A stretch of DNA of 64,000 nt from Paracoccaceae bacterium. Lineage in GTDB: Bacteria > Pseudomonadota > Alphaproteobacteria > Rhodobacterales > Rhodobacteraceae. The notes under the pieces were generated by a model, which did no database searches, had not been told where the DNA came from, and saw only the letters and a list, made by a program, of their open reading frames with translations. Shown piece after piece: positions 22,196 through 40,756 of the stretch. The DNA is taken from NCBI GenBank assembly GCA_029246285.1, contig JAQWNW010000047.1, positions 1 through 64,000 on the forward strand, written 5' to 3'. Position numbers and translations under genes: made by a program. Numbering within the stretch: position 1 is the stretch's first letter; each line of letters begins with the position of its first letter.

Positions 22196-22196
22196 T

Positions 22197-25352: not shown

Positions 25353-25374
25353 AATCAGTCCTTCACCAGTAGAG

Positions 25375-25791: not shown

Positions 25792-26978
25792 GTTAATCCC
25801 AATCTCTTTCGAATTGCATCGGCTGCTGCGCTTAACGCAATCTTTTCAATATCTGACAAAGCTATCTCTTCAACTGAAATCATGCCTTTTAACCCAAGAT
25901 GCACGGGGACGCCCAACACCACATTTGTTAACCCAAATTCACCATCTAACATTACAGAAACAGGTACTGCGCCACTTTTAGCGCCTCGAATATGGTCTAA
26001 TATTTCTATAGTTGCGTGCGCAGGAGCAATTGTTGCAGATCCTAATTTCTTAAGCGCAACCACTTGGCCACCGCCAGTTATAGCATCATTTGAGCTATTA
26101 TTAATCTCATCGTCAGACAAATATCTATTTAAAGATCTTCCCTTTATCTTCGCGTGGGAAACAATTGGAGCCATTTCATCACCATGGCTTCCAAGGGTTA
26201 TAGCTTCTACATCAGAAACTTGCACACCAGCCGCTTTCGCAAGAGATAACCGAAACCTACTACTATCCAGTGTTCCCGCCATACCTAATACCCGGCTTCT
26301 AGGAAACTCAGTCGAAGTCAACATTTCCATGGTCATCTCATCCAAAGGATTCGTAACGACTATAACTATTGCTTTGGGTGATTGAGTTTTAATTACCTCT
26401 GCAGTCGCTTGAATAACTCGCTTATTTGTCTGAATTAGATCATTTCTCGACATTCCAGGAGTTCGCGCTCGCCCAGCCGTAACAATTACCACATCAGAGT
26501 CATTAATAATTTCTAAATTTTCGGCCCCATAAGCTTGACTATGCGATCGAGTTATTCCACTTGCATGATTTAGATCTAGCGCCGTTGCAGCCGCTAATCC
26601 AGGCACAATATCAGCAATCGCGATCTCATCTGATAAATCAAGATTTGCAGCTAAATGCGCAATGTTAGAGCCAACCCCTCCAGCCCCAACAATTGCAATT
26701 TTCGAAAATCTTTTTGCCTTTTGAGTTATACTTTTATCAGGTGCAATCCATTTTGGTGATCGACGATAGAGATTACGTCGCATCGAAGTTTTGCCATCGG
26801 TCTTAACAACAGCTTCTTTTTCAATGGGACCATAAACTAATTCTAAACCTAACCGACTTGCTGTTTCCTCAGCTAGACTTGTTACAATATCTCCTGGCAA
26901 AATTTCAAAAACCTTACGCCCTCGCCGACGTGCATCCTCAATATGCTCAACTCCAATCACGCGAGCGTCTGACATCAT
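25788..26978 (-). CDS. Malate/lactate-type dehydrogenase with EutQ-like N-terminal extension
   Basis: 396 aa, about 85 longer than usual malate dehydrogenase. Residues 5-50 (pattern HIEDARRRGRKVFEI ... PGDIVTSLAEETASRLG) resemble the N-terminal segment of EutQ, where ITPEAREVAELLG is the matching part; a linker of about 40 residues follows. The dehydrogenase begins KIAIVGAGGVGSN (about 93-105). The acid at the end of the second strand (IADI) indicates NAD. Substrate residues are malate-like: Arg172 and Arg178 in GRARTPGMSR, Asp238, Arg241 and His265 (GSHGDEM). It probably reduces or oxidises a 2-oxo/2-hydroxy acid and could recycle NADH inside the shell. ATGA overlap with the BMC-T stop. Confidence 0.88.
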   Translation of the reverse strand: MMSDARVIGVEHIEDARRRGRKVFEILPGDIVTSLAEETASRLGLELVYGPIEKEAVVKTDGKTSMRRNLYRRSPKWIAPDKSITQKAKRFSKIAIVGAGGVGSNIAHLAANLDLSDEIAIADIVPGLAAATALDLNHASGITRSHSQAYGAENLEIINDSDVVIVTAGRARTPGMSRNDLIQTNKRVIQATAEVIKTQSPKAIVIVVTNPLDEMTMEMLTSTEFPRSRVLGMAGTLDSSRFRLSLAKAAGVQVSDVEAITLGSHGDEMAPIVSHAKIKGRSLNRYLSDDEINNSSNDAITGGGQVVALKKLGSATIAPAHATIEILDHIRGAKSGAVPVSVMLDGEFGLTNVVLGVPVHLGLKGMISVEEIALSDIEKIALSAAADAIRKRLGLT

Positions 26979-27598
26979 TCAACCTTACCATCAACTGCTT
27001 CAATTGCTGCAGTTGCAGCTTCCATTCCGGTTTGAACAGAATTTTCCGAGCCCGAAATAAATAATCTTCCAAAACGACCAACGGCTCTTACTTCCACAAT
27101 ATCGATATCCGCCGCTTTTTCTGCTTCATTTGCTGCTATGGAAATATACGCTGCTGGAGCGCACTCAATAATACCTAAAGTTTGACCAGGTACTAATAAT
27201 GCTCCTTTTCTCCACTTGTTCAAAAGTTGAGCTTGATATGGTTCCACTGATGTTATGATCTGAGTTGTTGCAACTTTTGGTTTAACTCGATCCTCCATCG
27301 AGGCGCCAAGTTCTGACAATATTGAGTCCCTGGCCGCACTAACCTCAGCATTTGATGGTGATCGCAAGATGAAAAAACCAAACTCCCTTTCAACCAACTG
27401 ACTGGTTGCTTCAACCGAACTTGCCTTTAAGGCGCGATCAATTAATGTAAATACTCCATTACCGGGGGCAAACTCACCGATTAAAACTGTATCACCAGAC
27501 AAAGGTACAGATCCTTGAACTGTCGCTCCGTTATAGGCCGCAAATTTGGGTTGTAAGTTATCGATCTGGATTAAAGCTCGTATTGTTATATCACTCAT
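26975..27598 (-). CDS. Tandem-domain microcompartment shell protein BMC-T
   Basis: 207 aa with two fused BMC domains. The second is clear: LGIIECAPAAYISIAANEAE followed by VEVRAVGRFGRLFISG and an alpha-helical end (about 138-203). The first (about 10-95) is more diverged, with VLIGEFAPG and FGFFILRSP. Tandem proteins assemble as pseudohexameric trimers in the shell facets, often with a gated central pore for larger metabolites or cofactors. The divergence of domain 1 makes assignment to the single-layer or stacked subclass uncertain. It lies between the aldehyde dehydrogenase and the malate-type dehydrogenase. Confidence 0.92.
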   Translation of the reverse strand: MSDITIRALIQIDNLQPKFAAYNGATVQGSVPLSGDTVLIGEFAPGNGVFTLIDRALKASSVEATSQLVEREFGFFILRSPSNAEVSAARDSILSELGASMEDRVKPKVATTQIITSVEPYQAQLLNKWRKGALLVPGQTLGIIECAPAAYISIAANEAEKAADIDIVEVRAVGRFGRLFISGSENSVQTGMEAATAAIEAVDGKVE

Positions 27599-27600
27599 TC

Positions 27601-28980
27601 TTATTCTCCATACTCATCATAAATATCGCGCCACGGTCGACTTTCGTAAGCTACCCGCTTTATATTTATTAAATGAAGTGCGGTAACATTATCTGACGTG
27701 ATTGAACCAGACCAAGTACCAGTCCCTAACATAAAGCTAGGCTCTAAATCAGTCGAATAACCCATACCACCCAGAATGGCTGGTGTATTAACCAGCACTC
27801 TTCCGGTCGGAATACGTGAAAACTTAGCAATCACTTCTGGATCATTTGAATGAACAACTGACGAATGCCCCCATCCCTCAAATCTGGCTATTTGATTTGA
27901 TAATTCAATTCCATGCTCTTCATCATTAGCAACATAAAACGCTAAGACTGGATTCAATTTTTCAGCAGACAATGGTCGATGCCAACCAATTTCCTCTTCT
28001 TCCGAAACTAATATTCGTGTTTTTGGTGGTATAGAAAACTCAGCTAACTCAGCTAATACATTTGGAGATTGACCTACTCGATTTGGGTTCATCCGTTGTT
28101 TTCCAAGAAAAATGACTTTTGCTAATCTATCAGATTCTGCCGGCGTACAAAAATATGCACCTCGGAGCTTCAATTCATTTCGTAATTCTCTTGCAAGCTC
28201 CTTATCAACAATCAAAGATTGTTCAGAAACACATGCAGTTCCATAATCAAAACTCTTTGATACAATAATTTGCTCAGCTACTTCTGTTAAATCATTAGCT
28301 TTTGACTTATTGACATAACAAGGAACATTTCCCGCTCCTACCGCCAATGTAGGCTTTCCAGAAGAATAAGCGGCTTTTACCATAGCAGGACCGCCAGTCG
28401 CCATTACAACTGAAGTTCTTCGATGCCTCATAAGTTCATCAGTTCCTTGGATAGTCACGTGCTCTAAGCACTGGATAAGTCCCTTTGGTGCACCCATCTG
28501 CTCCGCCACTCCAGCCAAGAGCCTAGTTACCTCTAATCCGCAGCGCAATGCTCTTGGATGAGGAGCACAAACAATTGCGTTTCCAGCTTTCACAGCAGAT
28601 AAAACCTTGTAAATGATTGTTGATGTTGGATTAGTTACAGGAATCAAGGCAGCTACTAACCCCATGGGCTCTCCAAATGCGGCTACTTTTGTTGCATCAT
28701 CTTTCCACAACATTCCAAGCGTAGTTACATCCCGTAAATAATCAGCTACCGAAACCGCATTGAACATGTCTTTTATTCTTTTATCTTTTGCGTTTCCATA
28801 TCCTGTTTCAGCGACTGCTAGCTCAACAATTCTATTGACCTCAGGCTCAATTGCATTTGCCATAGCATCGACGATTGCATCAATTTTACTCGGATCAGTG
28901 CCTAAGAATTGTCTATAGGCTTCAAATGCTGTTTCAGCACAACGCCTTGCAGCCGCGATTGATTTCAAATCAGCGTCCAT
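27601..28980 (-). CDS. CoA-acylating aldehyde dehydrogenase of the microcompartment
   Basis: About 459 aa, of the PduP/EutE/SauS and AdhE N-terminal class. Cys250 in KSFDYGTACVSEQS is the catalytic nucleophile, with the acylating-class GNVPCYV and HPRA blocks and PVTNPTSTIIYKV near 114-126. It converts an aldehyde to acyl-CoA with NAD. It has no long N-terminal targeting helix; the core starts at once, SIAAARRCAETAFEAYRQ. ATG 28980 with GGGGGA five bases upstream is preferred over in-frame ATGs at 29004 and 29040, and overlaps the upstream gene by 11 bases. The aldehyde is not defined; acetaldehyde, glycolaldehyde or sulfoacetaldehyde are candidates. Confidence 0.9.
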   Translation of the reverse strand: MDADLKSIAAARRCAETAFEAYRQFLGTDPSKIDAIVDAMANAIEPEVNRIVELAVAETGYGNAKDKRIKDMFNAVSVADYLRDVTTLGMLWKDDATKVAAFGEPMGLVAALIPVTNPTSTIIYKVLSAVKAGNAIVCAPHPRALRCGLEVTRLLAGVAEQMGAPKGLIQCLEHVTIQGTDELMRHRRTSVVMATGGPAMVKAAYSSGKPTLAVGAGNVPCYVNKSKANDLTEVAEQIIVSKSFDYGTACVSEQSLIVDKELARELRNELKLRGAYFCTPAESDRLAKVIFLGKQRMNPNRVGQSPNVLAELAEFSIPPKTRILVSEEEEIGWHRPLSAEKLNPVLAFYVANDEEHGIELSNQIARFEGWGHSSVVHSNDPEVIAKFSRIPTGRVLVNTPAILGGMGYSTDLEPSFMLGTGTWSGSITSDNVTALHLINIKRVAYESRPWRDIYDEYGE

Positions 28981-30169
28981 TTCGTCCCCCAGTCGCGATT
29001 TCATCCATTGCACGACGAGCCGTGTCAATATTGTCTGCATTTATCCCTATTGCTTCTAATCGCCTTCCAGCTGCAGAAATATCCGCTCCTAAAATATTAG
29101 AAGCTAAATTGATTAAGGATGTTGTCATTGGCACCTCTAGTTTTGCTATTTTAGCTGCAGAAGTAAGAGGAACTAAAGATCCAATTATTCCACACCGCAA
29201 TAAGGATTTAGCCTGTTTTTGCAACGGGATTGTTCTACTATAATCTCCACGCAAGCTACCGCCAAAGATATCTATCATTTCATCATCAGAGGGTAAATCG
29301 CGAACCCCATAAGCTTTTGCCACCATTTTTCTCTCAGAGTTCAATGCAGAGATGATATTTTTTTGAGCAGGCCCAATTATTGAAGCAAAAGTTCTATTCT
29401 CTTCTAGCGGCTTACCTCCCATAGGTATCGATACAGCGGTACTTCCAAATGCTGGGCCACCCATTATCAAAGTTGGAATTTCAATCATGGCAGAACCATC
29501 TAAAAATCCAGATGTCAGTACGCTGTCATAGCCATCTAAGTTATGGAAATATACTTTTAAGGCATTCAAAACGTCAGATCGATTGCTAGGCAAGGTCGCA
29601 GCAGGCATTGGAGCAGCGTTGGATAAGGTTAATATTGAACCCGCTTCACTGTACCAATATGGAAGCCCTTGCACTTCGACTATAGTAATATCTGCAGCGC
29701 ATCCCCCAATTCTGAGCAACCATGCTGTTTCTATAGCACCTAATGATCTTCCAGGAGCGACCACCAATACTTGCCCATCTTTTAAATGATCCGCAAGCAC
29801 CATTGCATAAGTTCGTTGCTTATGTACTGGGCCAGTCAGAAATATAACCTCAGCATCCTTTACCACATTGTCAAGTTCAGCTGAGGTTTTTATTGACGGA
29901 CCCTCGTCTCGGTCCACGTGATAGGTCCCAATGGGACCAAGGCCTCTCAACGTTACTCCACTCGACGACCTAAGTGCCGATAATTCATCTCCATAAGCAG
30001 AGAAAAGCTTTACTTCAGCGCCCTTTGAAAGAGATAAAGCAGCAATCAATTTACCGTCTGCACCTCCACCCAAAACAGCCACCTTAGAAAAAGACTTTTT
30101 ATCATTTACCGGTTTCTTAGTGGTAGTTTTGGATATAGCTTGAGTAAATTCTTCGAATCCAGAACTCAT
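28970..30169 (-). CDS. Opine (octopine/nopaline) dehydrogenase-like protein with targeting-peptide-like N-terminus
   Basis: 399 aa. The Rossmann domain begins KVAVLGGGADGKLIAA (29-44); the C-terminal half is the helical opine dehydrogenase domain seen in octopine/nopaline dehydrogenases (GFLDGSAMIEIPTLIMG, then a long helical region ending near AAGRRLEAIG). Opine dehydrogenases reversibly join an amino acid and a 2-oxo acid by NAD(P)H-linked imine reduction. Residues 2-14 (SSGFEEFTQAISK) form a possible amphipathic helix followed by a polar linker to about residue 28, the layout of a BMC encapsulation peptide. It may cleave an N-substituted amino acid, or serve as an NADH sink. Exact substrate unknown. 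Confidence 0.75.
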   Translation of the reverse strand: MSSGFEEFTQAISKTTTKKPVNDKKSFSKVAVLGGGADGKLIAALSLSKGAEVKLFSAYGDELSALRSSSGVTLRGLGPIGTYHVDRDEGPSIKTSAELDNVVKDAEVIFLTGPVHKQRTYAMVLADHLKDGQVLVVAPGRSLGAIETAWLLRIGGCAADITIVEVQGLPYWYSEAGSILTLSNAAPMPAATLPSNRSDVLNALKVYFHNLDGYDSVLTSGFLDGSAMIEIPTLIMGGPAFGSTAVSIPMGGKPLEENRTFASIIGPAQKNIISALNSERKMVAKAYGVRDLPSDDEMIDIFGGSLRGDYSRTIPLQKQAKSLLRCGIIGSLVPLTSAAKIAKLEVPMTTSLINLASNILGADISAAGRRLEAIGINADNIDTARRAMDEIATGGRNGR

Positions 30170-30213: not shown

Positions 30214-30522
30214 TTAGTCTGCACCACCATTACCGAGCGCACCGATTAAAGCCTCTAACTCATCGTGAGGTCTTGCGATCACGTGAACGGAAACAACTTC
30301 ACCCACTTTGTTTGCTGATGTGGCTCCCGCATCTGTAGCAGCTTTAACAGCGCCCACTTCACCCCTCACAAGGGTTGAAATCAAACCACCACCATTCTTC
30401 GTTTGACCGACAATAGTAACACTCGCCGCTTTAACCATAGCATCGGCTGCTTCTATTGAAGCGACCAATCCTCTGGTTTCAATCATACCAAGTGCCATTT
30501 GACTCTGAATTGACTTAGCCAT
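30214..30522 (-). CDS. Hexameric microcompartment shell protein BMC-H
   Basis: 102 aa single BMC domain. [24 protein letters not shown] is the first strand-helix unit (about 9-32), [20 protein letters not shown] the second, and [11 protein letters not shown] the last strand. The central-pore region is NGGG (about 46-49). The start is ATG 30522, preceded by GAAGGAAAA; the frame extends 11 residues further without support. It overlaps the 3' end of the BMC-P gene by eight bases. It is the only BMC-H in the window and would form the bulk facet tile. Confidence 0.95.
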
Positions 30523-30820
30523 TTTGTTTTTCCTTCTCTTTGTTATCTTTTTCATTAAAATTGTAAATTTTCTCTACTATCGCTACAATTGAAGCATCAA
30601 CAGGCGCTCCAGTCACTGAGATAGGTATTCTTGCCGCAGACCCTGTCGCAATTAACACAGTGTCTCCAACTCCAGCGCCACAAGTGTCAACGACTACAGT
30701 AGCGTTAGATAAAATGTTGCCATCACCATCTAAAATGTCAGCAATCAATGTTTTAAATCCTACTAACTTTGGATCTTTTGTAGTGGCATTAACATGCCCT
30801 GTAATTTTACCAATTTTCAT
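30515..30820 (-). CDS. Pentameric microcompartment vertex protein BMC-P (EutN/CcmL family)
   Basis: 101 aa. [23 protein letters not shown] is replaced in function by its opening KIGKITGHV and [11 protein letters not shown], both typical of EutN/CcmL, followed by [22 protein letters not shown], the conserved pentamer core (about 47-63). It caps the icosahedral vertices. A highly charged C-terminal tail of about 12 residues ([14 protein letters not shown]) extends beyond the core. Its ATG shares one base with the stop of the glutamine-synthetase-like gene (TAATG), so the shell genes are translationally coupled to it. Confidence 0.94.
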
Positions 30821-32115
30821 TAAAACACATCCCTGTAACGCTCTAACTCAAATGGTGTAACTTGCTGATTGAAAAAATCTAATTCTCGTTCACTTTGTTG
30901 TAATGCTATCTCATATAAATCAGTTCCAATAACATTCTTGAGCCAATCTGAATTCCTAGCTAAATCAATTGCATCACGTAAATCAGTGGGGATTGGAGAA
31001 GCTACTTCAGACTCATAAGCATTGCCTGTGGTCATTTCATCAGGTTCAATTTTACCCTCTAGTCCGTCCAAACCAGCTGCGATATCTGTCGCCATTATTA
31101 AATATGGATTACAATCAGCCCCAGCGTCGCGTTTCTCGACTCTTGTCGCGCTATCAGAACCCTGGATTATCCTAATTCCTACAGTCCTATTATCAATACC
31201 CCATGCAGTATTTATAGGACAAAAAGTATAAGGTTGACGACGCCTAAAGCCATTTACAGTGGCACTACCACAAACAGCTGCTTCAGCCATTCTTTTTTGC
31301 ACACCGCCAACAAAGTACTTACCGTCCTTACTTAAGGCACCATTATCAGCGAATATATTTTTTCCATTTTTCCACAAAGAATAATGACAATGAAATCCAC
31401 TGCCCGATTGTTCAAAAAATGGTTTTGCCATAAAAGTGGCCTTATAACCGTGCTTAAAAGCTAATTGCTTTACAACATTTCTAAAAGTAACAACTCGATC
31501 TGCCGCGAGTAAAGCCTCATCATAACGAATATTAACTTCTACTTGGCCCTCAGCATATTCTGGGTTGGACTGTTCTACAGGTATGCCAATTTCATTAATG
31601 TTATTTCTAATTGGTCCAAGAACATGCTCTAACTCTGCAGCACGCTCTAAACTATAAACACCATTTCCTTTGTCTTTTGGCATGCCAGTTTCTGGATCGA
31701 GTAGGTAAAATTCTAATTCAGCGCCAACTTTAATCTCAACGCCCAATTTTTCCGCTCTATCTAATTGTCTAATTAAAACTTGCCTTGGATCGATGGGCAC
31801 AGGCTTATGATCCATCCCCTCTGCTCGAGCAAATGCAAGAGCAACTCCTGGCTCCCACGGTAGACTTACTGGTTTAGTGATAGGAAAAAGATGCATATCT
31901 GGGTAACCGTTATCCATATTTACATAAGGGGTATCCCAAACGTCACAAGTCATATCGATAGCAAATAAAGCAGCCGATAAGGCATTTCCATTTTTGCATA
32001 TATTGTCCCAATTACTCGCTGGGATTCGCTTTCCACGCATAATTCCATTTAAATCACCTAATCCCAAAGCAACGGTATGCGTGCCTTCGGGTAAAGTAAA
32101 ATCTTCTGCGGCCAT
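30820..32115 (-). CDS. Glutamine-synthetase-like gamma-glutamyl amine ligase, head of the BMC operon
   Basis: 431 aa, GS catalytic fold without the adenylylation-site Tyr region. Visible active-site blocks: VGAELEFYLL (metal Glu), GQVEVNIRY, SGSGFHCHYSLW (metal His, ATP), FRRRQPYTFCPINTAWG, and RVEKRDAGADCNPYL. The N-terminal domain lacks a FDGSSI-type ammonium loop, as in PuuA, IpuC and GmaS, which ligate glutamate to amines. Known relatives make gamma-glutamyl-putrescine, -isopropylamide or -methylamide. With mgsABC in the same regulon a GmaS-like role on an amine is likely. GAGGAGG precedes the ATG, and the operator lies 39 bases upstream. Confidence 0.88.
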   Translation of the reverse strand: MAAEDFTLPEGTHTVALGLGDLNGIMRGKRIPASNWDNICKNGNALSAALFAIDMTCDVWDTPYVNMDNGYPDMHLFPITKPVSLPWEPGVALAFARAEGMDHKPVPIDPRQVLIRQLDRAEKLGVEIKVGAELEFYLLDPETGMPKDKGNGVYSLERAAELEHVLGPIRNNINEIGIPVEQSNPEYAEGQVEVNIRYDEALLAADRVVTFRNVVKQLAFKHGYKATFMAKPFFEQSGSGFHCHYSLWKNGKNIFADNGALSKDGKYFVGGVQKRMAEAAVCGSATVNGFRRRQPYTFCPINTAWGIDNRTVGIRIIQGSDSATRVEKRDAGADCNPYLIMATDIAAGLDGLEGKIEPDEMTTGNAYESEVASPIPTDLRDAIDLARNSDWLKNVIGTDLYEIALQQSERELDFFNQQVTPFELERYRDVF

Positions 32116-32207
32116 CCAATTATCCTCCTCACAAATTACTGTTGCTAGTTCTCTGTATTCTGTATACAGTATTCAAAAGTACAGGGAATGGCAAGGGTTA
32201 ATTTAAT
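32116..32207. promoter_or_regulatory. Divergent control region between BMC operon and flavoprotein gene, with operator copy 2
   Basis: This 92-base gap carries both promoters. TGTATTCTGTATACA at 32154-32168 differs from the other two operator copies by one base, and it is embedded in a wider dyad centred on GTATAC. The site is 39 bases from the ATG of the glutamine-synthetase-like gene and 40 bases from the ATG of the flavoprotein, so one dimer could control both directions. Confidence 0.72.
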
Positions 32208-33347
32208 ATGAAAAAAAGTAACATTATTGTGGTAGGCGGCGGAATCGCCGGAACTATGACAGCTCTAAGCTTACAAAGAAGTGGCAACCAAGTCACTTTA
32301 ATAGATAGATGGGAGCCAGGCCATGCCCGAGCAGCTTCCTCAGACTATAATCGAGTGATTAGAGCCATTTCAGGGCATGATGAATTTTATACAAGGTGGG
32401 CCAGAGAAAGCCGTCAGCGTTGGCTGGAATTACAAGCTGAAACAGGTCAAAAATTAATGTATGAATGTGGTGCACTTATACTGGCCACAGAAGGTCATTC
32501 AGATTGGGAAGACGCATCATCAGCAACGTTTGATAAAGTTGGCGTGCCCTATTATAAATTTAATCAAGATGAAATTAGCAAAAGATTTCCTCAATTCAAG
32601 GTTCCCGATATTTCTTATGCCCTCTTTGAGCCTGAAGCTGGTATGTTAATGGCTCACAGATGCGTAATTACTGGCATTGAATTATTTAAAAAAGCAGGTG
32701 GTATAGTAAAACGTGGCCATGTAACAACGGACCCCACAGAAAAACCCCTGTTAGACAACAAACCTTTGGAGGCTGACGTAATAATCATCGCGACAGGGGC
32801 CTGGATGTCCGAAATGTTTCCCCGTACCATTAAGCCAATTTCTGCTATAATCGGGTTGCCGGTTTTTTACACCTCTACTCCTAACGGCAGCGACCTATTT
32901 GATAAAGACAAGATGCCTTGCTGGATCGATCACGGCCAAAATTCATTTGGAATTCCCTCCAGTGAGGGATCAGGAATTAAAGCAATGATCGCAATTCCAG
33001 AAAAAATTGACCTGGATAATGACGAAAGACTTATAAAACGAGAAGCTCTTGCCCGCACACAAAGCTACGTAAAACATCGCTTTCCATTATTAGAAAATGA
33101 AAAAGTTGTAGACTCGAAATTTAACCAAATAATCTTAACACCTGATACTCATTTCGTGGTGGATTGGCACCCCGAACACACTAATGTATTGTTTGCAGGA
33201 GGTTGTTCTGGGCACTTATTTAAACATGGACCTGTTTTTGGAGAGTTTGTTAGTGGAGTCGCCATGCATGACTATGGGACAGCTGACAGATTCAAGATTA
33301 CAGGAAGAAAGAAACTAAGCCCTAAGGAAAGCCCATCAGGGAGATAA
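32208..33347 (+). CDS. MSOX-like DAO-family FAD oxidoreductase
   Basis: 379 aa, length of monomeric sarcosine oxidase. The FAD fingerprint IIVVGGGIAGTMTALSLQRSG (5-25) is followed by ASSDYNRVIRAISGHDEFY, the MSOX-like substrate/FAD loop. Near the C-terminus TPDTHFVVDWHPEHTNVLF and GHLFKHGPVFGE match the family. The covalent-FAD Cys that precedes TPDxHF in MSOX is Asn here (KFNQIILTPD), so FAD is probably not covalently held. MSOX relatives oxidise N-methyl or N-alkyl amino acids to imines. It is divergent from the BMC operon, sharing its operator; an N-substituted glutamate is the suggested substrate. No signal peptide. Confidence 0.85.
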   Translation: MKKSNIIVVGGGIAGTMTALSLQRSGNQVTLIDRWEPGHARAASSDYNRVIRAISGHDEFYTRWARESRQRWLELQAETGQKLMYECGALILATEGHSDWEDASSATFDKVGVPYYKFNQDEISKRFPQFKVPDISYALFEPEAGMLMAHRCVITGIELFKKAGGIVKRGHVTTDPTEKPLLDNKPLEADVIIIATGAWMSEMFPRTIKPISAIIGLPVFYTSTPNGSDLFDKDKMPCWIDHGQNSFGIPSSEGSGIKAMIAIPEKIDLDNDERLIKREALARTQSYVKHRFPLLENEKVVDSKFNQIILTPDTHFVVDWHPEHTNVLFAGGCSGHLFKHGPVFGEFVSGVAMHDYGTADRFKITGRKKLSPKESPSGR

Positions 33348-33392
33348 ACTAACAGAGAGCAATTTTGACTTCGATTAGAGAGGGGGACCACA

Positions 33393-34229
33393 TTGAGTAA
33401 TCACCTTGAGAAGAAAGTGATAATTATTACTGGGGCAGCCAGTGGGTTTGGCCATCTTGTGGCTTTGAAAAGCTTAAAACTGGGCGCAAGGGTAGTTCGC
33501 TGTGACATTAACAAAAATAATCTAGAATCCTCACAATCTGATTTTACTAAATATAAGAATGATGTATTAGATTATACAGCAGATGTCGCCAACCTGAAAC
33601 AAATGCAATCATTGGTAAGCCGTGCAATCAAAAAATTTGGCTCCGTCGATATTCTGATAAACAACGCGGGTATAATGCCTCTTGCTTTCTATAAAGACCA
33701 CAATGAAGCTTATAAAGATTGGGAGAGGTGCATTGAAATAAATATCAAAGGTGTATTGAATGGTATTATTTCAACTTATGATACCATGATATCTCAAGGA
33801 AATGGTCACATTGTAAATATCTCTTCCATCTATGGAAATTATCCAGTCGCAGGAGCTGGAGTCTATGGAGCATCCAAAGCAGCAGTAAACTTTTTATCTG
33901 AATCGCTTCGGGTAGAAACTCAAGGAAAAATAAAGGTTACGACTATCAAGCCCACGGGCGTCCGTGGAACTAATCTTGGAAAAGGCATTATTAATGAAGA
34001 TGCAATAGTTGGTATTTTGGGTCAAAATGCATCAAGTTACATCAAAAAAATGGATGATTTTGACCACGGCAAATTGCCGGATCATTATAGTGACCACAAT
34101 AACATCGAATATTACGCATTAAGTCCAGAGCATTTAGCAGAACAAATAATATATGCTATAAATCAGCCATTAGGAGTGACAATTGCAGATTTAACAATCC
34201 GTGCTTCAGGAGATGAATACATTCTATAA
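33393..34229 (+). CDS. Short-chain dehydrogenase/reductase
   Basis: 278 aa. Cofactor loop ITGAASGFGH (13-22), NAG near 92, Ser in ISSIYGNYP and catalytic YGASK (Tyr-x3-Lys), then IKPTGVRGTN. It starts with TTG at 33393, supported by GAGAGGGGG upstream. About 20 residues longer at the C-terminus than the SDR at 24567, and not a close copy of it. It follows the MSOX-like gene by 45 bases on the same strand, so it is probably part of the same induced unit. The alcohol or ketone substrate is unknown. Confidence 0.88.
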   Translation: MSNHLEKKVIIITGAASGFGHLVALKSLKLGARVVRCDINKNNLESSQSDFTKYKNDVLDYTADVANLKQMQSLVSRAIKKFGSVDILINNAGIMPLAFYKDHNEAYKDWERCIEINIKGVLNGIISTYDTMISQGNGHIVNISSIYGNYPVAGAGVYGASKAAVNFLSESLRVETQGKIKVTTIKPTGVRGTNLGKGIINEDAIVGILGQNASSYIKKMDDFDHGKLPDHYSDHNNIEYYALSPEHLAEQIIYAINQPLGVTIADLTIRASGDEYIL

Positions 34230-34252
34230 AATTCAACGTTATTAGACAACAT

Positions 34253-34948
34253 TTAATAACCAAAAGCTGTTTTGAAAAAGTTAGCGGCTTGCTGTGCAAA
34301 AAGATGATCTTGAACTTTAAGTTCTTTTAAAGATTTAGACGCTCTGGTAACTTCATCTACACTTAAGATTTCTTGCTCTAGCTCTGCTACAATCCGACTT
34401 ACAAAATCATGATTATATTCTGGATGAAACTGGCATGAAAAAGCTGGAAAGTTATACTCAATTATTGCGTTTTTACAGTAATCTGCACTGCCAACCACAC
34501 TCGCTTCTTTTGGCACTTTTAACACTTGATCCTGGTGAGCAATATAGGCGTTAAAATCATTATTTTTCATTGAAAACCTTGAAACCCCCACCTTATAACC
34601 CACGTCAGATTTTCCAGAAATACCACCAAAGGTGTCAGCCATTAACTGGTGACCAAAACAAATTCCAAATAAAGGTTTTTTACTTTTCTTTATAGCTTTT
34701 AGAAAAGAACGTAACTCAATGATCCATGATAAACTATCATAAATGCTTTTTTCAGACCCAGGTACTATAAACCCATCAAAATCCTCAACCTTAGGAAATT
34801 CGCAATTTTTTGCTATTGGTATCGTAAAAAAAGATACATTGGGCAAGAATGGCTGAAGCCATTTTGTAACTACTGACCCCACACTACCATATCCACTTAA
34901 CTTCGAGCCCTCTAAAATTGCACAATCCAATATTGCAATTTTCTTCAT
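34253..34948 (-). CDS. Class I glutamine amidotransferase-like protein
   Basis: About 231 aa. The catalytic triad is visible: Cys in LFGICFGHQLMADTFGG and the His-Glu pair in SCQFHPEYN. The fold is a stand-alone GATase1, as in GuaA-like proteins and gamma-glutamyl hydrolases. In this setting it may hydrolyse a gamma-glutamyl amide, in the manner of PuuD, or supply ammonia. A VPGSEKSIYD segment replaces the usual GGP oxyanion region, so it is a diverged member. The start is placed at ATG 34948 just after the mgsC stop. Last gene of the mgs operon. Confidence 0.8.
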   Translation of the reverse strand: MKKIAILDCAILEGSKLSGYGSVGSVVTKWLQPFLPNVSFFTIPIAKNCEFPKVEDFDGFIVPGSEKSIYDSLSWIIELRSFLKAIKKSKKPLFGICFGHQLMADTFGGISGKSDVGYKVGVSRFSMKNNDFNAYIAHQDQVLKVPKEASVVGSADYCKNAIIEYNFPAFSCQFHPEYNHDFVSRIVAELEQEILSVDEVTRASKSLKELKVQDHLFAQQAANFFKTAFGY

Positions 34949-34953
34949 CACAC

Positions 34954-36375
34954 TTACCAATCAAACGCCCGATCAATTCCAGCCATTTTCACACCCGTAA
35001 ATGCAGACGCCTGAAAAGACAGAGCTCGCAAATCCTCAGTTTCTAAATTATGAACGGAAGATTTCCCACATGCTTTGGCTAATGCGGTGATCTCCATCGT
35101 CATCGCGGTTAAATATCGAGCTACTCTTTCCGCTCCAGCTCGCGGATCCATTCTCTTTTCTAGCTCTTTATCTTGTGTCGCAATACCGACTGGGCATAAA
35201 CCGGTATGACAATGGTGACATGCTCCCGGTGAAGTTCCTAGAGCTCTATAATCCTCTTCATAACGAGGTGAGTTGCAGCCCATCGCTATCATAGATCCGT
35301 TGCCAATCATCACTGCGTCGGCACCTAATGCTAGGCATTTTGCAGCATCTACACCTGTACGAATGCCACCCGCTGCTACCAAATCAACTTTACCGGTCAT
35401 TCCACATTCGTCCAATGCCTCACGCGCAGCTCTAATCGCACTCATTGTGGGAATTCCCGTGTGGTTTAAGAGCATTTCAGGCGAAGCACCAGTCCCTCCT
35501 TCTGCCCCGTCTACCACTACGACATCTGCCCCCGCTTTTGCAGCGACAGCAACGTCAAATCGAGGTCTAGTAGCACCCATTTTTATAAAAATTGGAACTT
35601 GGTAATTTGTTGCAATTCTGAGCTCTTCAATTTTGACTGAAAGATCATCAGCACCCATAAAATCAGGGTGCCTAATCGTCGATCTTTGATCCACCCCCTC
35701 TGGTAAAGTACGCATTTTGCTCACCCGAGGGCTTACTTTCATACCCAAAAGCAATCCACCAGTTCCAGGTTTTGCGCCTTGCCCAACCACAATTTCTAGA
35801 GCATTTGCTCTCCTTAAATGGTCCAAATCAACTCCATATCTAGCGGGAGACATCTGATATAAAAGTCTTTGAGATGCTGATCGCTCTTCTTCGAGCATTC
35901 CACCTTCCCCAGTACAGGTCATTGTCCCAACTTTAGATGCACCATAACCAAGTGAAGCTTTTGCACTTGCAGATAATGCTCCAAAAGACATTGATGCTAT
36001 GTAAATTGGTATTTTTAATTCCAAGGGCTTTTCAACAATTCCTCGCCCCGCACCTAAGATAGTAGTAGAGTCACAACTTTCTCTGTAGCCCTCTAATGGC
36101 AATCGAGTCATTGTTGCTGGTACAAATGTTAAATCGTCAAAAGTTGGCAGTTGCTTATTGAATGTATTGTAACCTCTTACCTGATATCGGCCAAGTTGAG
36201 CTAATGCATGCACCTCAGCAATAGCATCAGGTGTCCACCTTGTTGATCCACCTTCATCATATGAAGAAGGCACCCCAGCGGGTCTACCCTTTATTGCTCC
36301 ACTTGAAAACTTAATTTCTTCTTCACTAGCAACCTCAAAAGGATACTCATACGGTTTTTCTATATCATTAGCCAT
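34954..36375 (-). CDS. mgsC: N-methylglutamate synthase subunit C-like (GltB FMN domain)
   Basis: 473 aa, equivalent to the central plus FMN-binding domains of glutamate synthase large subunit as a separate protein. Blocks: MSFGALSASAKASLGYGA, GTMTCTGEGGM, GQGAKPGTGGLL, VVVDGAEGGTGASP and a Cys cluster, ACHHCHTGLCPVGIATQ, for the 3Fe-4S-type centre. In methylotrophic bacteria MgsABC transfers methylamine from gamma-glutamylmethylamide or directly to form N-methylglutamate. The overlap of 16 bases with mgsB supports a coupled complex. A true ammonia-assimilating GOGAT is unlikely because the subunits are split and gltD is absent. Confidence 0.88.
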   Translation of the reverse strand: MANDIEKPYEYPFEVASEEEIKFSSGAIKGRPAGVPSSYDEGGSTRWTPDAIAEVHALAQLGRYQVRGYNTFNKQLPTFDDLTFVPATMTRLPLEGYRESCDSTTILGAGRGIVEKPLELKIPIYIASMSFGALSASAKASLGYGASKVGTMTCTGEGGMLEEERSASQRLLYQMSPARYGVDLDHLRRANALEIVVGQGAKPGTGGLLLGMKVSPRVSKMRTLPEGVDQRSTIRHPDFMGADDLSVKIEELRIATNYQVPIFIKMGATRPRFDVAVAAKAGADVVVVDGAEGGTGASPEMLLNHTGIPTMSAIRAAREALDECGMTGKVDLVAAGGIRTGVDAAKCLALGADAVMIGNGSMIAMGCNSPRYEEDYRALGTSPGACHHCHTGLCPVGIATQDKELEKRMDPRAGAERVARYLTAMTMEITALAKACGKSSVHNLETEDLRALSFQASAFTGVKMAGIDRAFDW

Positions 36376-37052
36376 GCGCTTGCATCCCTACTTTCAAAAT
36401 ACCACAAACGTTGTCCTGAAATCATTTTGCGCCATTCTCTTGACTTATCGACTAAACCTAAGGGTTCTAGTATTTCATCTACCTCATCGACATCTTCTTG
36501 AGTTGGCTCAATCACATTCACATCAACACCTAAACTTTTTACTGGCCCAGCGACCCAGACCTCACCAGCCCAGAGGGCATCTGCACAACTCTCACCTGCG
36601 CCACCTAAAGCTATAATTTTTCCTGAGTGAGCCATAAATCCTGACTGGTAACCAATGGTTCCTTCCACTACTATATTCCCACCCTTCATCGCAACTCCGC
36701 ATCTGGGGCCAGAATTACCTTTTATATGAATAGTCCCACCGATCATGGCTGCACCAGCGGACATCCCAGCGTATCCACCTACAGTAATATGCCCCTCTGA
36801 CATTCCCTCACCTAAAGCCCAACCAGCATTTCGCTCAATATTTAATTTAGCGCCAGTGTTTAATCCTCCGCAGAAATAGCCAACACTTCCTTCAAATTCT
36901 ATCTCCGCGCCCGGTGGCAGACCTATCCCTAAATTATGTCTAGAGAGCGTGTTTACTATTCTTATTTTCTTTCCAAGCGAACAACATTCCTGAATATCTT
37001 CATTTATTTCTCGTATATGACGATCTCCAACCTCAATCTCCACCTCACTCAT
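36360..37052 (-). CDS. mgsB: N-methylglutamate synthase subunit B-like (GltB GXGXG domain)
   Basis: 230 aa, right-handed beta-helix of the GltB C-terminal domain. It shows repeated Gly-rich turns: GYFCGGLNTGAKL, GGYAGMSAGAAMIGG, GNSGPRCGVAMKGG, GTIGYQSGFMAHSG. It is a structural and tunnel-forming subunit rather than a catalytic one. The start ATG overlaps the mgsA stop as ATGA. The gene size and order A-B-C match mgsABC of methylamine-using alphaproteobacteria. Confidence 0.88.
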   Translation of the reverse strand: MSEVEIEVGDRHIREINEDIQECCSLGKKIRIVNTLSRHNLGIGLPPGAEIEFEGSVGYFCGGLNTGAKLNIERNAGWALGEGMSEGHITVGGYAGMSAGAAMIGGTIHIKGNSGPRCGVAMKGGNIVVEGTIGYQSGFMAHSGKIIALGGAGESCADALWAGEVWVAGPVKSLGVDVNVIEPTQEDVDEVDEILEPLGLVDKSREWRKMISGQRLWYFESRDASAWLMI

Positions 37053-37993
37053 GCTGCAAAACTCCTATTTCCAACACCCCATAATCCAGTCAAACTTGGA
37101 CCATCATGATTTATCACGTCACACTCTTCTTTAAAAACTCGCCTAACAGCCTGCTCTTCAGTTGCCGCAGCTAAATCGCCATTATCATCAATTACTACTA
37201 AGGGTTTGAGCGCAAATCGGTCTTTTGCAAAGCCTATGCCAGCTGGCCCAGCAATCATATATGTGAAAATTCCATCAATTGAATTTATTGATTTTTTCAA
37301 TGCTTGCTCCATTGTCATACCAGCTTTCATTTGATCAGAAACCCATATCGCAATTAACTCACTGTCATTTTCAGTTAAGAATCGATATCCTTTTCTTTGG
37401 AGCTTGTCCCGCCAGGTATAGTAATCCGTAATCTGTCCATTGTGAACGATCGCCATATCTGAGAATGGCCTAGCCCAAAAAGGATGGCTGGCGTTTGGCA
37501 ATACAGAACTTTCTGTAGCAAGACGAGCATGTCCCAGTCCATGAGTTCCAACCATTTCTCGTACGTTGTGCTTTTCTGCCACTTCCGCCGCGCTTCCCGT
37601 ATCCTTTATAATCTCTAAAGATCTACCACAGGATTGTATTTCCATTCGTTGGGCTAAACTATCTGCTTCTACCACCCAAGTTCTCAGGTCTTTGGGCTCA
37701 GTTATCTCCATCTTAAAACAATAATGCTTATTATGGTCCATCACTATTGACGGCTCAGATTTTAAACTCGCGCTGTGATCAGTAAGTAAATTTTTAAAAT
37801 CATCGAGATCTGTATCGATTTTTTCCTTGTCAAACCCCATACCTCGCAGAACATATCCCTCGTCTCTGGGTATCGTGTAGATTGCAAAGCCTGTACTATC
37901 TGCTCCTCTATGAGATTGGGCATCCATTAAATCTACCAAATCCCGCCCAACATTACCGGGCGCACTTAATATTCTACCAGCTATTCCACACAT
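37049..37993 (-). CDS. mgsA: N-methylglutamate synthase subunit A-like (class II glutamine amidotransferase)
   Basis: About 314 aa. The start is set at MCGIAGRIL (ATG 37993, with AAGGAG upstream), giving Cys2 as the N-terminal nucleophile of Ntn amidotransferases; the frame reaches 38032 but would bury that Cys. SHRGADSTGF, GLGHARLATES, HNGQITDYYTWRD and TENDSELIAIWVSD are conserved glutaminase-domain blocks. It would hydrolyse the gamma-amide of a glutamyl donor and channel the released amine to MgsC. First gene of mgsABC; the operator lies 17 bases upstream of the ATG. Confidence 0.88.
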   Translation of the reverse strand: MCGIAGRILSAPGNVGRDLVDLMDAQSHRGADSTGFAIYTIPRDEGYVLRGMGFDKEKIDTDLDDFKNLLTDHSASLKSEPSIVMDHNKHYCFKMEITEPKDLRTWVVEADSLAQRMEIQSCGRSLEIIKDTGSAAEVAEKHNVREMVGTHGLGHARLATESSVLPNASHPFWARPFSDMAIVHNGQITDYYTWRDKLQRKGYRFLTENDSELIAIWVSDQMKAGMTMEQALKKSINSIDGIFTYMIAGPAGIGFAKDRFALKPLVVIDDNGDLAAATEEQAVRRVFKEECDVINHDGPSLTGLWGVGNRSFAA

Positions 37994-38009
37994 TAAGACG
38001 ACTCCTTTA

Positions 38010-38024
38010 TGTATACTGTATACA
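38010..38024. promoter_or_regulatory. Palindromic operator copy 3 (mgs operon / gntR intergenic)
   Basis: TGTATACTGTATACA, identical to copy 1, within a longer dyad ATGTATAC...GTATGCAT (38009-38032). It is between divergent mgsA and the GntR regulator gene, 17 bases from the mgsA ATG. Such placement close to the start fits repression that is relieved by a pathway metabolite. Confidence 0.75.
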
Positions 38025-38133
38025 GTATGCATTGCATTATCACAAGAAACAATGTAAAGATTATCTTGTCTATTCTGCTCTTGATACTAATTCATTAAGG
38101 AAAAGCATATAGCTAAAAACTAAGAGGTAACAT

Positions 38134-38805
38134 TTGGCACTTAAAAGTATTCAACCAACTCGTCGTCGACTGGCCGACCAAGTCTATGATCAAATTATTG
38201 ATGCAATAATTCAGCAAGATATTGGTCCCGATGATAGGTTGATTCAAGAAAAATTAGCAATGGAACTTCAGATTAGTCGTACCCCAGTAAGAGAAGCCTT
38301 AATGCGATTGGAACAAGAGGGGGTTTTAGAGGTTTCCAATAGGGGAAGCTTTAAACTTTATCAAATGAGCGACGCTGAAGTTAGAGAACTATATCAGTCT
38401 CGGGCTGCAATAGAGGGACAATCTGCTAGAATTTTAGCAAGTAAAAATGACCCTCATCATTTAGAAATATTGAAAGAAACAATCAAATTTGAAGAAAATA
38501 TTGAAACTGATTCTGCAACAGCTCGAACATATTTTGAAGCCAATCGAAATATTCATAGGAAATTTGTTGAATTAGCAGAAAACAGATACTTATTGGAGAT
38601 GTTCGATATGATTTGGGGAAAAGCAAATTCATTTTCGATCTTTGCAACAATAGAAAATGTTGACCTAAGGAAGTCTCTTGGCGATCATATGGCATTAGTG
38701 GATGTGATTTCGACAGGAGATAAAACAGAAACTTTAGAAGTTTTTACTCAACATATTCAAGAGGGTTTTGACTTACAGTTAGAAGGCTTACATCAAAGCC
38801 AATAA
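38134..38805 (+). CDS. GntR-family transcriptional regulator (FadR/FCD subclass)
   Basis: 223 aa. The N-terminal winged helix-turn-helix covers about 12-75 (LADQVYDQIIDAI, then LQISRTPVREALMRLEQEG, the recognition helix region). The C-terminal all-helical FCD domain (about 85-215) provides Asp/His residues for a metal-bound effector. It starts with TTG at 38134, preceded by AGAGGTAA. It is divergent from mgsABC, with operator copy 3 in between, so it is the best candidate for the factor that binds all three palindromes. The effector is unknown and likely a pathway acid or amine derivative. Confidence 0.9.
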   Translation: MALKSIQPTRRRLADQVYDQIIDAIIQQDIGPDDRLIQEKLAMELQISRTPVREALMRLEQEGVLEVSNRGSFKLYQMSDAEVRELYQSRAAIEGQSARILASKNDPHHLEILKETIKFEENIETDSATARTYFEANRNIHRKFVELAENRYLLEMFDMIWGKANSFSIFATIENVDLRKSLGDHMALVDVISTGDKTETLEVFTQHIQEGFDLQLEGLHQSQ

Positions 38806-38858: not shown

Positions 38859-39887
38859 CTAAACTTTTGTTGATACTGAAGCTTCCTCGAAACTAGCCAT
38901 TCCACTGTGGCATGCTAATGCTGATTTCATTATGTTTATCGCCAAAGCGCCACCCGATGCCTCCCCCAATCTTAAATTTAAATCAATTAATGGGTTTTTA
39001 TTTAAGAGTTTAAGAATACGTACATGCGCACTCTCTGATGATAAATGTCCAGCAACACAATGATCTAACAATCCATTTGTAGTTTTTTCTAAGACAGCTG
39101 CTGACGCACAGCAAATAAAACCGTCCAGGATAACTGGAATTTTTAAAGCCCGAGCTCTAGCGATAGCCCCAACCATCGCCACCATCTCCCTTCCCCCTAA
39201 TTGCCTAAAAAGCTCAAGTGGACCTAACGACTCTCCCTTAATTCTTTCCAAGCCCTGCTCAACTACTTTTATTTTTAAAGCCAAACCTTCGTCAGTCACA
39301 CCAGTCCCTCTACCTACCCACTCTCTCGCAGTTCCACCAAACAAAGCACAAGCCAATACTGCAGCAGAAGTTGTATTACCAATACCCATCTCACCCACAA
39401 CCAAAAGATCAGATTCTTGTTTAACTGCATTCCATCCTACCGTTAGAGATTCCTCGAACTCTTCTGGTGACAATGCTGGCTCCTTTGTAAAATCTTTGGT
39501 TGGTTTTTCTAAATCTAAAGAATGCACATCTAGTGTTGCTCCAGCCACTTGACATAATTGATTAATCGCCGCTCCCTTATGTTCAAAATTCAATACCATC
39601 TGCGCCGTTACTTCTTGAGGGAATGCAGAAACCCCAAGCGAAGCTACTCCATGATTTCCAGCAAAAACAATAACTTGGGGGTTTAAAATATTAGCGTTTG
39701 GGTTCTGTCGCCATGCGCAATACCAAATTGCTAATTCTTCCAACCTACCTAGCGCTCCAGGGGGCTTAGTGAGAGATGCATTCCTTTCCGCAGCTAATTT
39801 CGATGTACTTTCATCTTTATTTGGTGGAGAATTAATTAGCACCCAAAAGTCTTTTAGCCCATTAGAGCTCTTTATTTCACGAGTCAT
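38859..39887 (-). CDS. cobT: Nicotinate-nucleotide--dimethylbenzimidazole phosphoribosyltransferase CobT
   Basis: 342 aa, usual CobT length. It makes alpha-ribazole phosphate for the lower loop of cobalamin. Recognisable blocks are LTKPPGALGRLEELA near the start, VFAGNHGVASLGVSAFP, GEMGIGNTTSAAVLA and the C-terminal RLGEASGGALA with the catalytic Glu. Divergent from cobS, with only 86 bases between. No cobalamin riboswitch is visible in that gap. These are salvage/late-assembly genes and do not indicate full B12 synthesis here. Confidence 0.95.
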   Translation of the reverse strand: MTREIKSSNGLKDFWVLINSPPNKDESTSKLAAERNASLTKPPGALGRLEELAIWYCAWRQNPNANILNPQVIVFAGNHGVASLGVSAFPQEVTAQMVLNFEHKGAAINQLCQVAGATLDVHSLDLEKPTKDFTKEPALSPEEFEESLTVGWNAVKQESDLLVVGEMGIGNTTSAAVLACALFGGTAREWVGRGTGVTDEGLALKIKVVEQGLERIKGESLGPLELFRQLGGREMVAMVGAIARARALKIPVILDGFICCASAAVLEKTTNGLLDHCVAGHLSSESAHVRILKLLNKNPLIDLNLRLGEASGGALAINIMKSALACHSGMASFEEASVSTKV

Positions 39888-39973
39888 GTATTATATCCAG
39901 ATTACTTGATTATTAAATTCAATACGTATTACATATAAGTGACGAAATAATAAACTACGTTTTGGGCATTTGA

Positions 39974-40756
39974 ATGAATAAATTCGAAAATAATATTTTT
40001 GATCTCAGATTGGGTGATTTCTTGATAGCACTCAGTTTACTCACCCGAATCCCCGTAAACATCGACCATAATAATGTAGGCGAAAGATCCCGAAAGGCTT
40101 CTTGGGCTTACCCCTTGGTTGGGGCATTGGTAGGGGCGATCGCTGCTCTGACAGCAAATATATTAAACTTCTTTGGCCTTCCAGTAACAATCTGCACAAT
40201 AATGGCTCTTTTAACGATGGTAGCCTTAACCGGAGGCATCCATGAAGATGGCTTAAGTGACAGCGCAGATGGACTCGGGGGAGGAACGGATAAAGACAGC
40301 ATACTCAAGATCATGAGAGATAGCAGGATTGGCAGCTTTGGAACGATTGCGTTGGTTTTAATTATTTTAGGCCGGTACGGCTCCATGAATGAACTGATGA
40401 AATTAGATCAACTATTTTGGCCATTAGTAGCAGCAGGCGCAGTAAGTCGCGTGCCAATGGTAGGCGCAATGGTTTATCTCAAGCCCGCTAGAAATGATGG
40501 TCTTTCTGTCTCAGTTGGAGCCCCACCTAAATTTTCATTTATAATCGCCCTGATTATTGGCATTTTAAGCTGCGTATTAGTTGTTGGTATACTAAGTATT
40601 TTAGTTTTGCTTGGCGTTGGTATCATAACAATAATAATCTTTTACATTGCTAATGAAAAAATCAGTGGCCAAACTGGAGATGTATTAGGAGCTTCTCAGC
40701 AATTCGCAGAGTTGATTGCACTGTCCATAATTAGTGGGATTTTAATAATAAACTAA
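39974..40756 (+). CDS. cobS: Adenosylcobinamide-GDP ribazoletransferase CobS
   Basis: 260-aa inner-membrane enzyme with about six hydrophobic helices. LSLLTRIPV near residue 20 is the conserved opening; GGIHEDGLSDSADGLGGG (about 90-107) is the Asp-rich catalytic motif, and DSRIGSFGTIALV the next block. It joins alpha-ribazole (phosphate) to adenosylcobinamide-GDP. It ends 12 bases from the stop of the convergent carD gene. Confidence 0.94.
   Translation: MNKFENNIFDLRLGDFLIALSLLTRIPVNIDHNNVGERSRKASWAYPLVGALVGAIAALTANILNFFGLPVTICTIMALLTMVALTGGIHEDGLSDSADGLGGGTDKDSILKIMRDSRIGSFGTIALVLIILGRYGSMNELMKLDQLFWPLVAAGAVSRVPMVGAMVYLKPARNDGLSVSVGAPPKFSFIIALIIGILSCVLVVGILSILVLLGVGIITIIIFYIANEKISGQTGDVLGASQQFAELIALSIISGILIIN

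Follow-up and report, generated by a model that had tools for sequence, protein, structure and literature searches.

Gene content and organisation of the locus

The 64,000-nucleotide stretch analysed here (the window; positions 1 to 64,000 of contig JAQWNW010000047.1 from a Paracoccaceae bacterium, assembly GCA_029246285.1) lies on contig C70 of genome G000, which has 2.27 Mb in 87 contigs and is 92% complete. It carries a regulon in which the shell proteins and acylating aldehyde dehydrogenase of a bacterial microcompartment (BMC) lie together with a glutamate-amine ligase and the subunits MgsA, MgsB and MgsC (MgsABC) of the N-methylglutamate pathway type. The regulon spans from about 38.0 to 19.8 kb on the minus strand in the order mgsA, mgsB, mgsC, a glutamine amidotransferase-like (GATase-like) gene, ligase, BMC-P, BMC-H, an opine-dehydrogenase fold protein (ODH), aldehyde dehydrogenase (ALDH), BMC-T, a malate-dehydrogenase-like enzyme (MDH), RidA, a short-chain dehydrogenase/reductase (SDR) and a Liv-type importer. 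A gene resembling monomeric sarcosine oxidase (MSOX), a second SDR gene and a GntR gene are divergent, on the plus strand (Table 1).

The MgsABC trio announced by the original prediction is intact, with the glutaminase and the FMN/Fe-S subunits of the N-methylglutamate pathway. The reading frames lie at the coordinates given by that prediction, except for the start of mgsA. The open reading frame of mgsA (37049-38032, minus strand) is over-extended; its conserved start MCGIAG is found at residue 14, so that the operator upstream lies outside the gene. MgsABC is thought to be GOGAT-like, and its electron donor is given as unknown in the passage that deals with it (PMC6237917). The GATase-like protein shares 36-42% identity with counterparts adjoining mgsC in five relatives.

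Table 1. Features of the regulon in the window, with model scores where available
Feature	Position	Strand	Match or remark
GntR-family regulator (PhnR-like), presumed operator binder	38134-38805	+	NCBIfam phnR_burk 94 bits, cut-off 272
Operator TACTGTATACAGTA, mgsA/gntR gap	38014-38027		0 mismatches
mgsA-like, class II glutaminase domain, N-terminal Cys	37049-37993	-	GATase_6, 58 bits
mgsB-like, GXGXG subunit	36360-37052	-	GXGXG, 60 bits
mgsC-like, FMN glutamate-synthase subunit, conserved Cys-rich motif	34954-36375	-	Glu_synthase, 330 bits
Class I GATase-like, possible gamma-glutamylamide hydrolase	34253-34960	-
SDR 3' of MSOX-like gene	33393-34229	+	Counterpart not seen in the 12 module loci
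MSOX-like FAD oxidase, proposed N-alkylglutamate oxidase	32208-33347	+	soxA_mon 166 bits, cut-off 480
Operator, divergent ligase/MSOX gap	32158-32171		1 mismatch
Glutamate-amine ligase (GoaS type), without glutamine synthetase ammonia residues	30820-32115	-	Gln-synt_C, 314 bits
BMC-P vertex protein	30515-30820	-	NCBIfam CcmL 75.7 bits, cut-off 125
BMC-H shell protein	30214-30555	-	PF00936, E 7e-25
ODH, His202/Asp297 equivalents replaced	28970-30169	-	Short N-terminal helix, then variable linker
Acylating ALDH, EutE/ADDH type	27601-28977	-	TIGR02518 492 bits, cut-off 620; start set by relatives
BMC-T (CcmP-like) shell protein	26975-27598	-	NCBIfam CcmP 205 bits, cut-off 340; PF00936
MDH	25788-26978	-	Short N-terminal region alignable with EutQ
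RidA-family imine/enamine deaminase	25375-25791	-	TIGR00004 47 bits, cut-off 106; 64-77% to relatives' RidA
SDR family protein	24567-25409	-	Counterpart not seen in the 12 module loci
Operator upstream of substrate-binding protein gene	24435-24448		2 mismatches
Substrate-binding protein, Liv-type ABC importer	23109-24392	-
LivH-like permease	22197-23048	-
LivM-like permease	21239-22216	-
LivG-like ATPase	20515-21255	-
LivF-like ATPase	19811-20518	-

A shared operator

Comparison of the gaps before mgsA, between the ligase and MSOX-like genes and before the binding protein gene reveals a palindromic operator common to all three. The window has exactly three matches with at most two mismatches, versus 0.17 expected. 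Across the whole genome the mgsA/gntR and ligase/MSOX gaps hold the only sites with zero or one mismatch; sites with up to two mismatches number 9 versus 11 in the control, that is, they are at control level. The GntR protein encoded next to mgsA presumably reads out the regulon, and a GntR gene adjoins mgsABC in nine relatives as well.

Co-inheritance of the shell with MgsABC

Eighty loci matched in a scan with the BMC-H protein, and 12 of them carry the same module (L003-L012, L014 and L064, some cut by contig ends); the other 68 have no ligase, MgsABC or MSOX match. The hosts of the module are Rhodobacteraceae, Sulfitobacter, Tepidamorphus, Rhizobiaceae, Albidovulum, Granulosicoccaceae, Thioalkalivibrio and Acidimicrobiia. 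MgsC of the window type (74-91%) is encoded in 11 of the 12 genomes found by the shell protein, and the twelfth has mgsA, mgsB and a fragment of mgsC at the contig edge. Among 385 genomes sampled across the class, three have the same MgsC type, the window's own included; it is found in 1 of 398 of a phylum sample (the window's own) and in 4 of 296 of the class of G012, G012 included. Searching by MgsC added five genomes: three from the class of G012 (G403, G470 and G632) also possess the shell module, and two, G206 and G013, are shell-free. We put no probability on this co-inheritance because related genomes are not independent.

The ligase has mgsABC within about 10 kb in the window and in L005, L007-L010, L064, L164 and L165, mgsAB in G002 and mgsBC in G011. 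The distance to mgsABC is about 15 kb in G010 and about 50 kb in G004 (same contig presumed), and mgsABC is on another contig in G001, G009 and G632. In three actinobacteria (L064, L164, L165) the genes for mgsABC, ligase, shell, ALDH, MDH and ODH follow each other in a single run on one strand. The operator is present in 8 of the 12 module loci, is kept at mgsABC clusters that lie away from the shell (L134, L135, L136) and has two mismatches at each of the actinobacterial sites (L064, L164, L165). A neighbourhood due purely to chance is rejected on the basis of the pairing of shell and MgsC, its rarity in the class, the actinobacterial gene run and the shared operator.

Could the regulator govern two unrelated systems, MgsABC, ligase and MSOX-like protein serving for amine nitrogen while the shell burns an aldehyde of other origin? 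The core of shell, ALDH and MDH does exist without these genes in Methylibium and Rhodococcus, and mgsABC lies away from the shell in some genomes. However, the same operator stands at both parts even when they are apart, the actinobacteria hold them in a single gene run and the pairing is near-total, and we regard this explanation as improbable.

One actinobacterial locus (L165, 4499-14379) is a mosaic: its BMC-T and MDH best match Methylibium, its ALDH is 44% identical to that of the window, and its ligase and mgsABC are of the window type.

Regulons without a shell

No PF00936 match is found in genomes G206 and G013, each of which is 98% complete. Both retain RidA, mgsABC and the ligase and have another Liv importer; after these genes come those for a flavin oxidase and an aldehyde dehydrogenase of the ordinary kind. 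In G206 the GntR gene is divergent from RidA, and operators are found between RidA and gntR, before mgsA and in the gap between oxidase and ALDH genes. G013 has one before mgsA (one mismatch) and others in the oxidase/ALDH and RidA/importer gaps (two mismatches each), only the mgsA site passing the matrix threshold of 13 bits. The arrangement suggests the same route, in which shell and acylating enzyme are replaced by an ordinary aldehyde dehydrogenase.

On contig C30 of G632 (L166, L167) mgsABC of the BMC type, RidA and an APC permease lie back to back with a second operon, which codes for a B12 mutase-like pair, a sulfoacetaldehyde acetyltransferase (793 bits, cut-off 676) and a class III aminotransferase. 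Taurine or sulfoacetaldehyde as substrate is a lead only, because the operator is not found at this mgsABC-RidA locus.

The glutamate-amine ligase

The original prediction had called the ligase GmaS-like. The protein scores 239 bits against the type III/GmaS model, whose cut-off is 470. In a tree built from 27 of 28 rows, the remaining one being empty (the outgroup rows drew a long-branch warning), it belongs to a clade of 17 with support 100/100, which is split from four GmaS sequences with support 100/99 and has on its side IpuC and two ligases that are PuuA-like by eye. Model score and tree position rule out a GmaS identity. The alignment reveals that the Asp50' loop and the Glu-flap glutamate are both lost, as expected of a GoaS-type ligase; glutamine synthetase relies on these residues for the use of ammonia (PMC7948447, PMC11335346). 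The closest named relative is IpuC of Paenarthrobacter aurescens TC1 (36.8%) and the closest on a plasmid is a Mesorhizobium ligase (59%). Since RhGmaS is promiscuous, taking ethylamine and propylamine (PMC7948447), the specificity of the ligase is not readable from homology alone.

Position in the tree and gene neighbourhoods bear on a scheme of the Ipu or Puu kind, in which the amine would stay gamma-glutamylated while its alkyl part is oxidised, the GATase-like enzyme would hydrolyse the amide and MgsABC would only salvage the amine nitrogen. In the tree, IpuC and the PuuA-like ligases lie on the same side as the ligase clade; the neighbours of Paenarthrobacter IpuC are an SDR, a GATase and a P450; and the GATase-like gene adjoins mgsC in the window and in five relatives. 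Genome G234, which has no PF00936 match and no MgsC match at E 1e-185, codes for the window's importer and ligase together with a P450, its reductase and a GATase-like protein; the Mesorhizobium ligase also sits with a P450 and a GATase-like gene. The ligase can therefore also serve another route and does not by itself imply an MgsABC step, because these two sit with a P450 and without mgsABC nearby. The scheme nevertheless seems unlikely for the window: no P450, ferredoxin or other hydroxylase is recognised among the locus genes, MgsABC is the very partner that accompanies the shell, the MSOX-like protein resembles oxidases of N-methyl amino acids, and the GATase is poorly conserved and is not seen in other module loci.

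MgsABC and the methylamine genes of the genome

Methylamine genes were sought with the set of Aminobacter aminovorans pAA01 as reference. The statement that mgdABCD is missing is correct for the locus and for the window contig, where MgdA has no match, and fails for the genome as a whole. Contig C25 has MgdB-, MgdD- and MgdA-like genes (70%, 47% and 54% to Aminobacter), C55 and C46 have weaker mgd-like sets and C83 has an MgdA homologue, each of which may code for either an N-methylglutamate dehydrogenase or a sarcosine oxidase. The second gmaS that the original prediction suggested looking for is on C44, in a separate gmaS-mgsABC cluster (GmaS 72%, MgsA 66%, MgsB 67% and MgsC 85% to the Aminobacter reference).

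In the MgsC tree the C44 type and the C10 type form two groups with support 100/99 and 100/100, and the window type lies outside both; the split of these two groups from the window type has a support of only 96/71. No operator with up to two mismatches is found in the fetched stretches around the gmaS-mgs genes of C44, the mgd-like genes of C25, C55 and C46 or the sets of C10 and C3 described below; C10 has two sites with two mismatches away from its MgsABC-like set. The genome scan lists no site on C83, where the stretch around the MgdA homologue was not fetched. The proposed route thereby survives the challenge that mgdABCD might be found elsewhere under the same operator.

Methylamine is probably handled elsewhere, because the genome holds a separate gmaS-mgsABC cluster and mgd-like operons, and the MgsABC set of the window is probably a paralogue with another task. 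That the locus itself would run an N-methylglutamate-type pathway from methylamine, feeding formaldehyde to the shell, is very hard to sustain. It has in its favour the homology of MgsABC and the promiscuity of RhGmaS, from which homology alone gives no specificity (PMC7948447). It is opposed by the separate operons, which lack the operator, by the position of the window ligase and MgsC outside the methylamine clades and by an ALDH of acetylating acetaldehyde type.

A third MgsABC-like set on C10 (L096, 8526-13253) comes with a GS-like ligase, and its MgsC clusters in the tree with those of four other genomes. It adjoins a flavin monooxygenase like trimethylamine monooxygenase and a glycine-betaine-type ABC importer, both named by eye. 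C3 (L098, 7956-12651) holds a set that is Puu-like by eye, with two GS-like ligases, a GATase and a flavin oxidase. Plasmid records contain no MgsC of the shell type, the best identity being below 60% in all 449 records with a match.

Candidate enzymes for cleavage of the C-N bond

The original prediction had both the MSOX-like flavoprotein and the ODH take the place of the four-subunit dehydrogenase. Both genes are present. The window ODH scores 26.9 bits against Octopine_DH, just under the cut-off of 30, and matches the opine dehydrogenase CENDH (PDB 1bg6) with E 6e-13. Its AlphaFold2 model (mean pLDDT 79) has the same protein as best PDB match (E 4e-19). It lacks the residues aligned with CENDH His202 and Asp297, which we take to be the catalytic pair of opine dehydrogenase. 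Sixteen ODH sequences were compared: three from loci with no MSOX gene within the fetched 20 kb, 12 from loci with one, and that of L003, which lacks both residues and whose locus is cut before the place of the MSOX gene. The three ODH proteins without MSOX (L064, L164, L165) keep both His and Asp. In those of the 12 MSOX loci (window, L004-L012, L014, L169) the His is absent from all 12 and the Asp from the 11 covered, L004 being cut before that position; L169, an actinobacterium, groups with the MSOX-bearing side. Plasmid records hold no close ODH (five records, 23-27%).

In 11 of 11 MSOX-like sequences, an Arg and two Lys align with residues that in monomeric sarcosine oxidase bind the substrate carboxylate and activate O2. 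Their retention would fit an N-alkyl amino acid substrate, as wanted for the route. The position of the covalent-flavin Cys is an Asn in the window; it is not Cys in 9 of the 11 sequences and is Cys in L012 and L014.

Because the residues aligned with His202 and Asp297 are absent, the window ODH is probably no stand-in for MgdABCD, and the flavoprotein is the more likely one. The plain reading of this distribution would be one reaction with two exchangeable enzymes, the MSOX-like protein or an ODH with its pair intact. The N-terminal helix of the window ODH and the variable linker after it weakly suggest entry into the shell.

The shell and the aldehyde end

With BMC-H, BMC-P, BMC-T and an aldehyde dehydrogenase the locus has the hallmarks of a metabolosome. 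Neither a phosphotransacylase nor an alcohol dehydrogenase, which are also expected of one, is recognised among the locus genes; they were not searched for in the rest of the genome. The ALDH matches PDB 5j78 with 417 bits and is of acetylating acetaldehyde type, which makes a two- or three-carbon aldehyde most likely, as would come from ethylamine, ethanolamine or similar amines. An arginine distinguishes malate from lactate dehydrogenases at a position where the alignment finds it kept in the MDH, so oxaloacetate and malate could carry away the NADH. A 115-residue protein of L064 resembles the N-terminus of Escherichia coli EutQ (E 2e-6). The N-terminus of the MDH is alignable with both of them and has no BLAST match to EutQ.

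The importer was considered as a readout of the substrate. Its binding protein has a best solved relative at only E 1e-7, and that of shell-free G206 matches only general amino-acid binders; this approach was rejected on these grounds.

A proposed route from amine to acyl-CoA

We privilege the hypothesis, which we consider probable from gene content, conservation and regulation, that a primary amine would pass through gamma-glutamylamide and N-alkylglutamate to an aldehyde and then to acyl-CoA in the shell, all within one regulon. Presumably under the adjacent GntR protein, the regulon would degrade a small primary amine via glutamate. The ligase would couple the amine to the gamma-carboxyl of glutamate in an ATP-dependent reaction. 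MgsABC, acting like GOGAT, would release the amine from the amide and transfer it to 2-oxoglutarate to give N-alkylglutamate. Oxidation of this secondary amine on the alkyl side, through an imine whose hydrolysis RidA may aid, would yield glutamate and an aldehyde; the candidate enzyme is the MSOX-like flavoprotein in the window genome and the opine dehydrogenase with intact pair in the three actinobacterial relatives. The acylating dehydrogenase in the shell would turn the aldehyde into acyl-CoA, the MDH would recycle NADH, and glutamate would be returned. The original prediction of such a route is supported by co-regulation, co-inheritance in two phyla and shell-free regulons, and loses the GmaS identity of its first enzyme.

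Several observations weigh against this hypothesis. The operator is not found in module loci L009, L010, L012 and L014, nor in L166 and L169, and the sites in the oxidase/ALDH gap of the shell-free genomes are weak (13.6 bits in G206, two mismatches in G013). The ligases of G234 and of the Mesorhizobium plasmid are accompanied by P450 and reductase genes and have no neighbouring mgsABC, an arrangement like that of the Ipu cluster. The MSOX-like protein does not retain the equivalents of His269 and Tyr317, two other residues of the sarcosine oxidase active site. Inspection by eye reveals no clear encapsulation tail on this protein, so that in the window genome the aldehyde might arise outside the shell, which would give a weaker reason for having a shell. 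The hypothesis gives no role to the ODH that lacks its pair, and the hydrophobic moment of its helix, in the top 4% of 13-mers of locus proteins in the window, is lower in three relatives.

A broader proposal, to which we give an even chance, is that these loci represent a class of microcompartment that obtains its aldehyde from an amine via N-alkylglutamate, with no B12 or glycyl-radical signature enzyme. The cleavage enzyme would have been swapped between an encapsulated ODH (the three actinobacteria) and a flavin oxidase (proteobacteria and one actinobacterium), after which the ODH would have lost its catalytic pair and stayed in the operon.

Neighbouring genes in the window

The cobT- and cobS-like genes (by eye) at 38859-40756 adjoin the regulon, probably by chance as no B12 enzyme is recognised in the locus. 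Further away, 8437-9735 (minus strand) codes for an L-pipecolate-oxidase-like flavoprotein (307 bits, cut-off 600); the flavin oxidase of G206 matches the same model with 153 bits. A BisC/TorA-family S/N-oxide reductase (897 bits, cut-off 1018) is encoded at 15499-17745 (minus strand) and an 8-oxoguanine deaminase above cut-off (653 versus 532) at 7068-8426 (plus strand).

Comparison with known systems

Many shell loci have an aldehyde dehydrogenase but no obvious aldehyde-making enzyme (Sutter et al. 2021, PMC8217296). The type of locus found here offers such shells a source, by amine glutamylation and N-alkylglutamate oxidation. If correct, the route would widen MgsABC chemistry beyond methylamine and open shells to amines with neither a B12 nor a glycyl-radical enzyme encoded at the locus. 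Clear, testable predictions follow from the operator and from the two enzymes that are alternatives for the oxidation. A literature search by titles found no published report joining a shell to this chemistry, although one of the 68 types catalogued in PMC8217296 may be this locus. The titles on isethionate and taurine in Bilophila shells concern a different, glycyl-radical chemistry.

The N-methylglutamate pathway shares with the window the pairing of ligase and MgsABC, a GS/GOGAT-like logic and the conversion of an N-substituted glutamate into glutamate and aldehyde-level carbon. The window differs by a ligase outside the GmaS clade, an MgsC outside the methylamine clade (100/99), a one-subunit flavoprotein with no MgdABCD at the locus, and an acyl-CoA-forming shell. 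The IpuC/GoaS ligases of isopropylamine, aniline, naphthylamine and putrescine routes are of the same family and have likewise lost the ammonia-specific residues, whereas the window ligase (37% to IpuC) forms its own clade and comes with MgsABC and a shell in place of a P450.

The one-subunit oxidase is related to monomeric sarcosine oxidase by its fold family, deduced from sequence, and by the Arg/Lys at substrate and O2 sites; it differs by the Asn in place of the covalent-FAD Cys and by not keeping His269 and Tyr317. The ODH shares its fold with CENDH, and the three actinobacterial loci share the His/Asp pair too. The window protein has neither residue, and the other MSOX-bearing loci lack the His and, where covered, the Asp.

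BMC-P, BMC-H, ALDH (50%), BMC-T and MDH follow in the same order in Methylibium petroleiphilum PM1 and partly in Rhodococcus oxybenzonivorans. These loci fit the MIC1 type when their genes are matched to its description in PMC4207490, where an MreB-like EutJ and a Zn-dependent dehydrogenase stand beside the ALDH and a lactate/malate dehydrogenase. In the window EutJ and the Zn alcohol dehydrogenase are not seen, and RidA, ODH, ligase, MSOX-like protein and MgsABC are found instead. The organelle seems to be of a known kind, its novelty being the unusual amine-glutamate route that would feed it.

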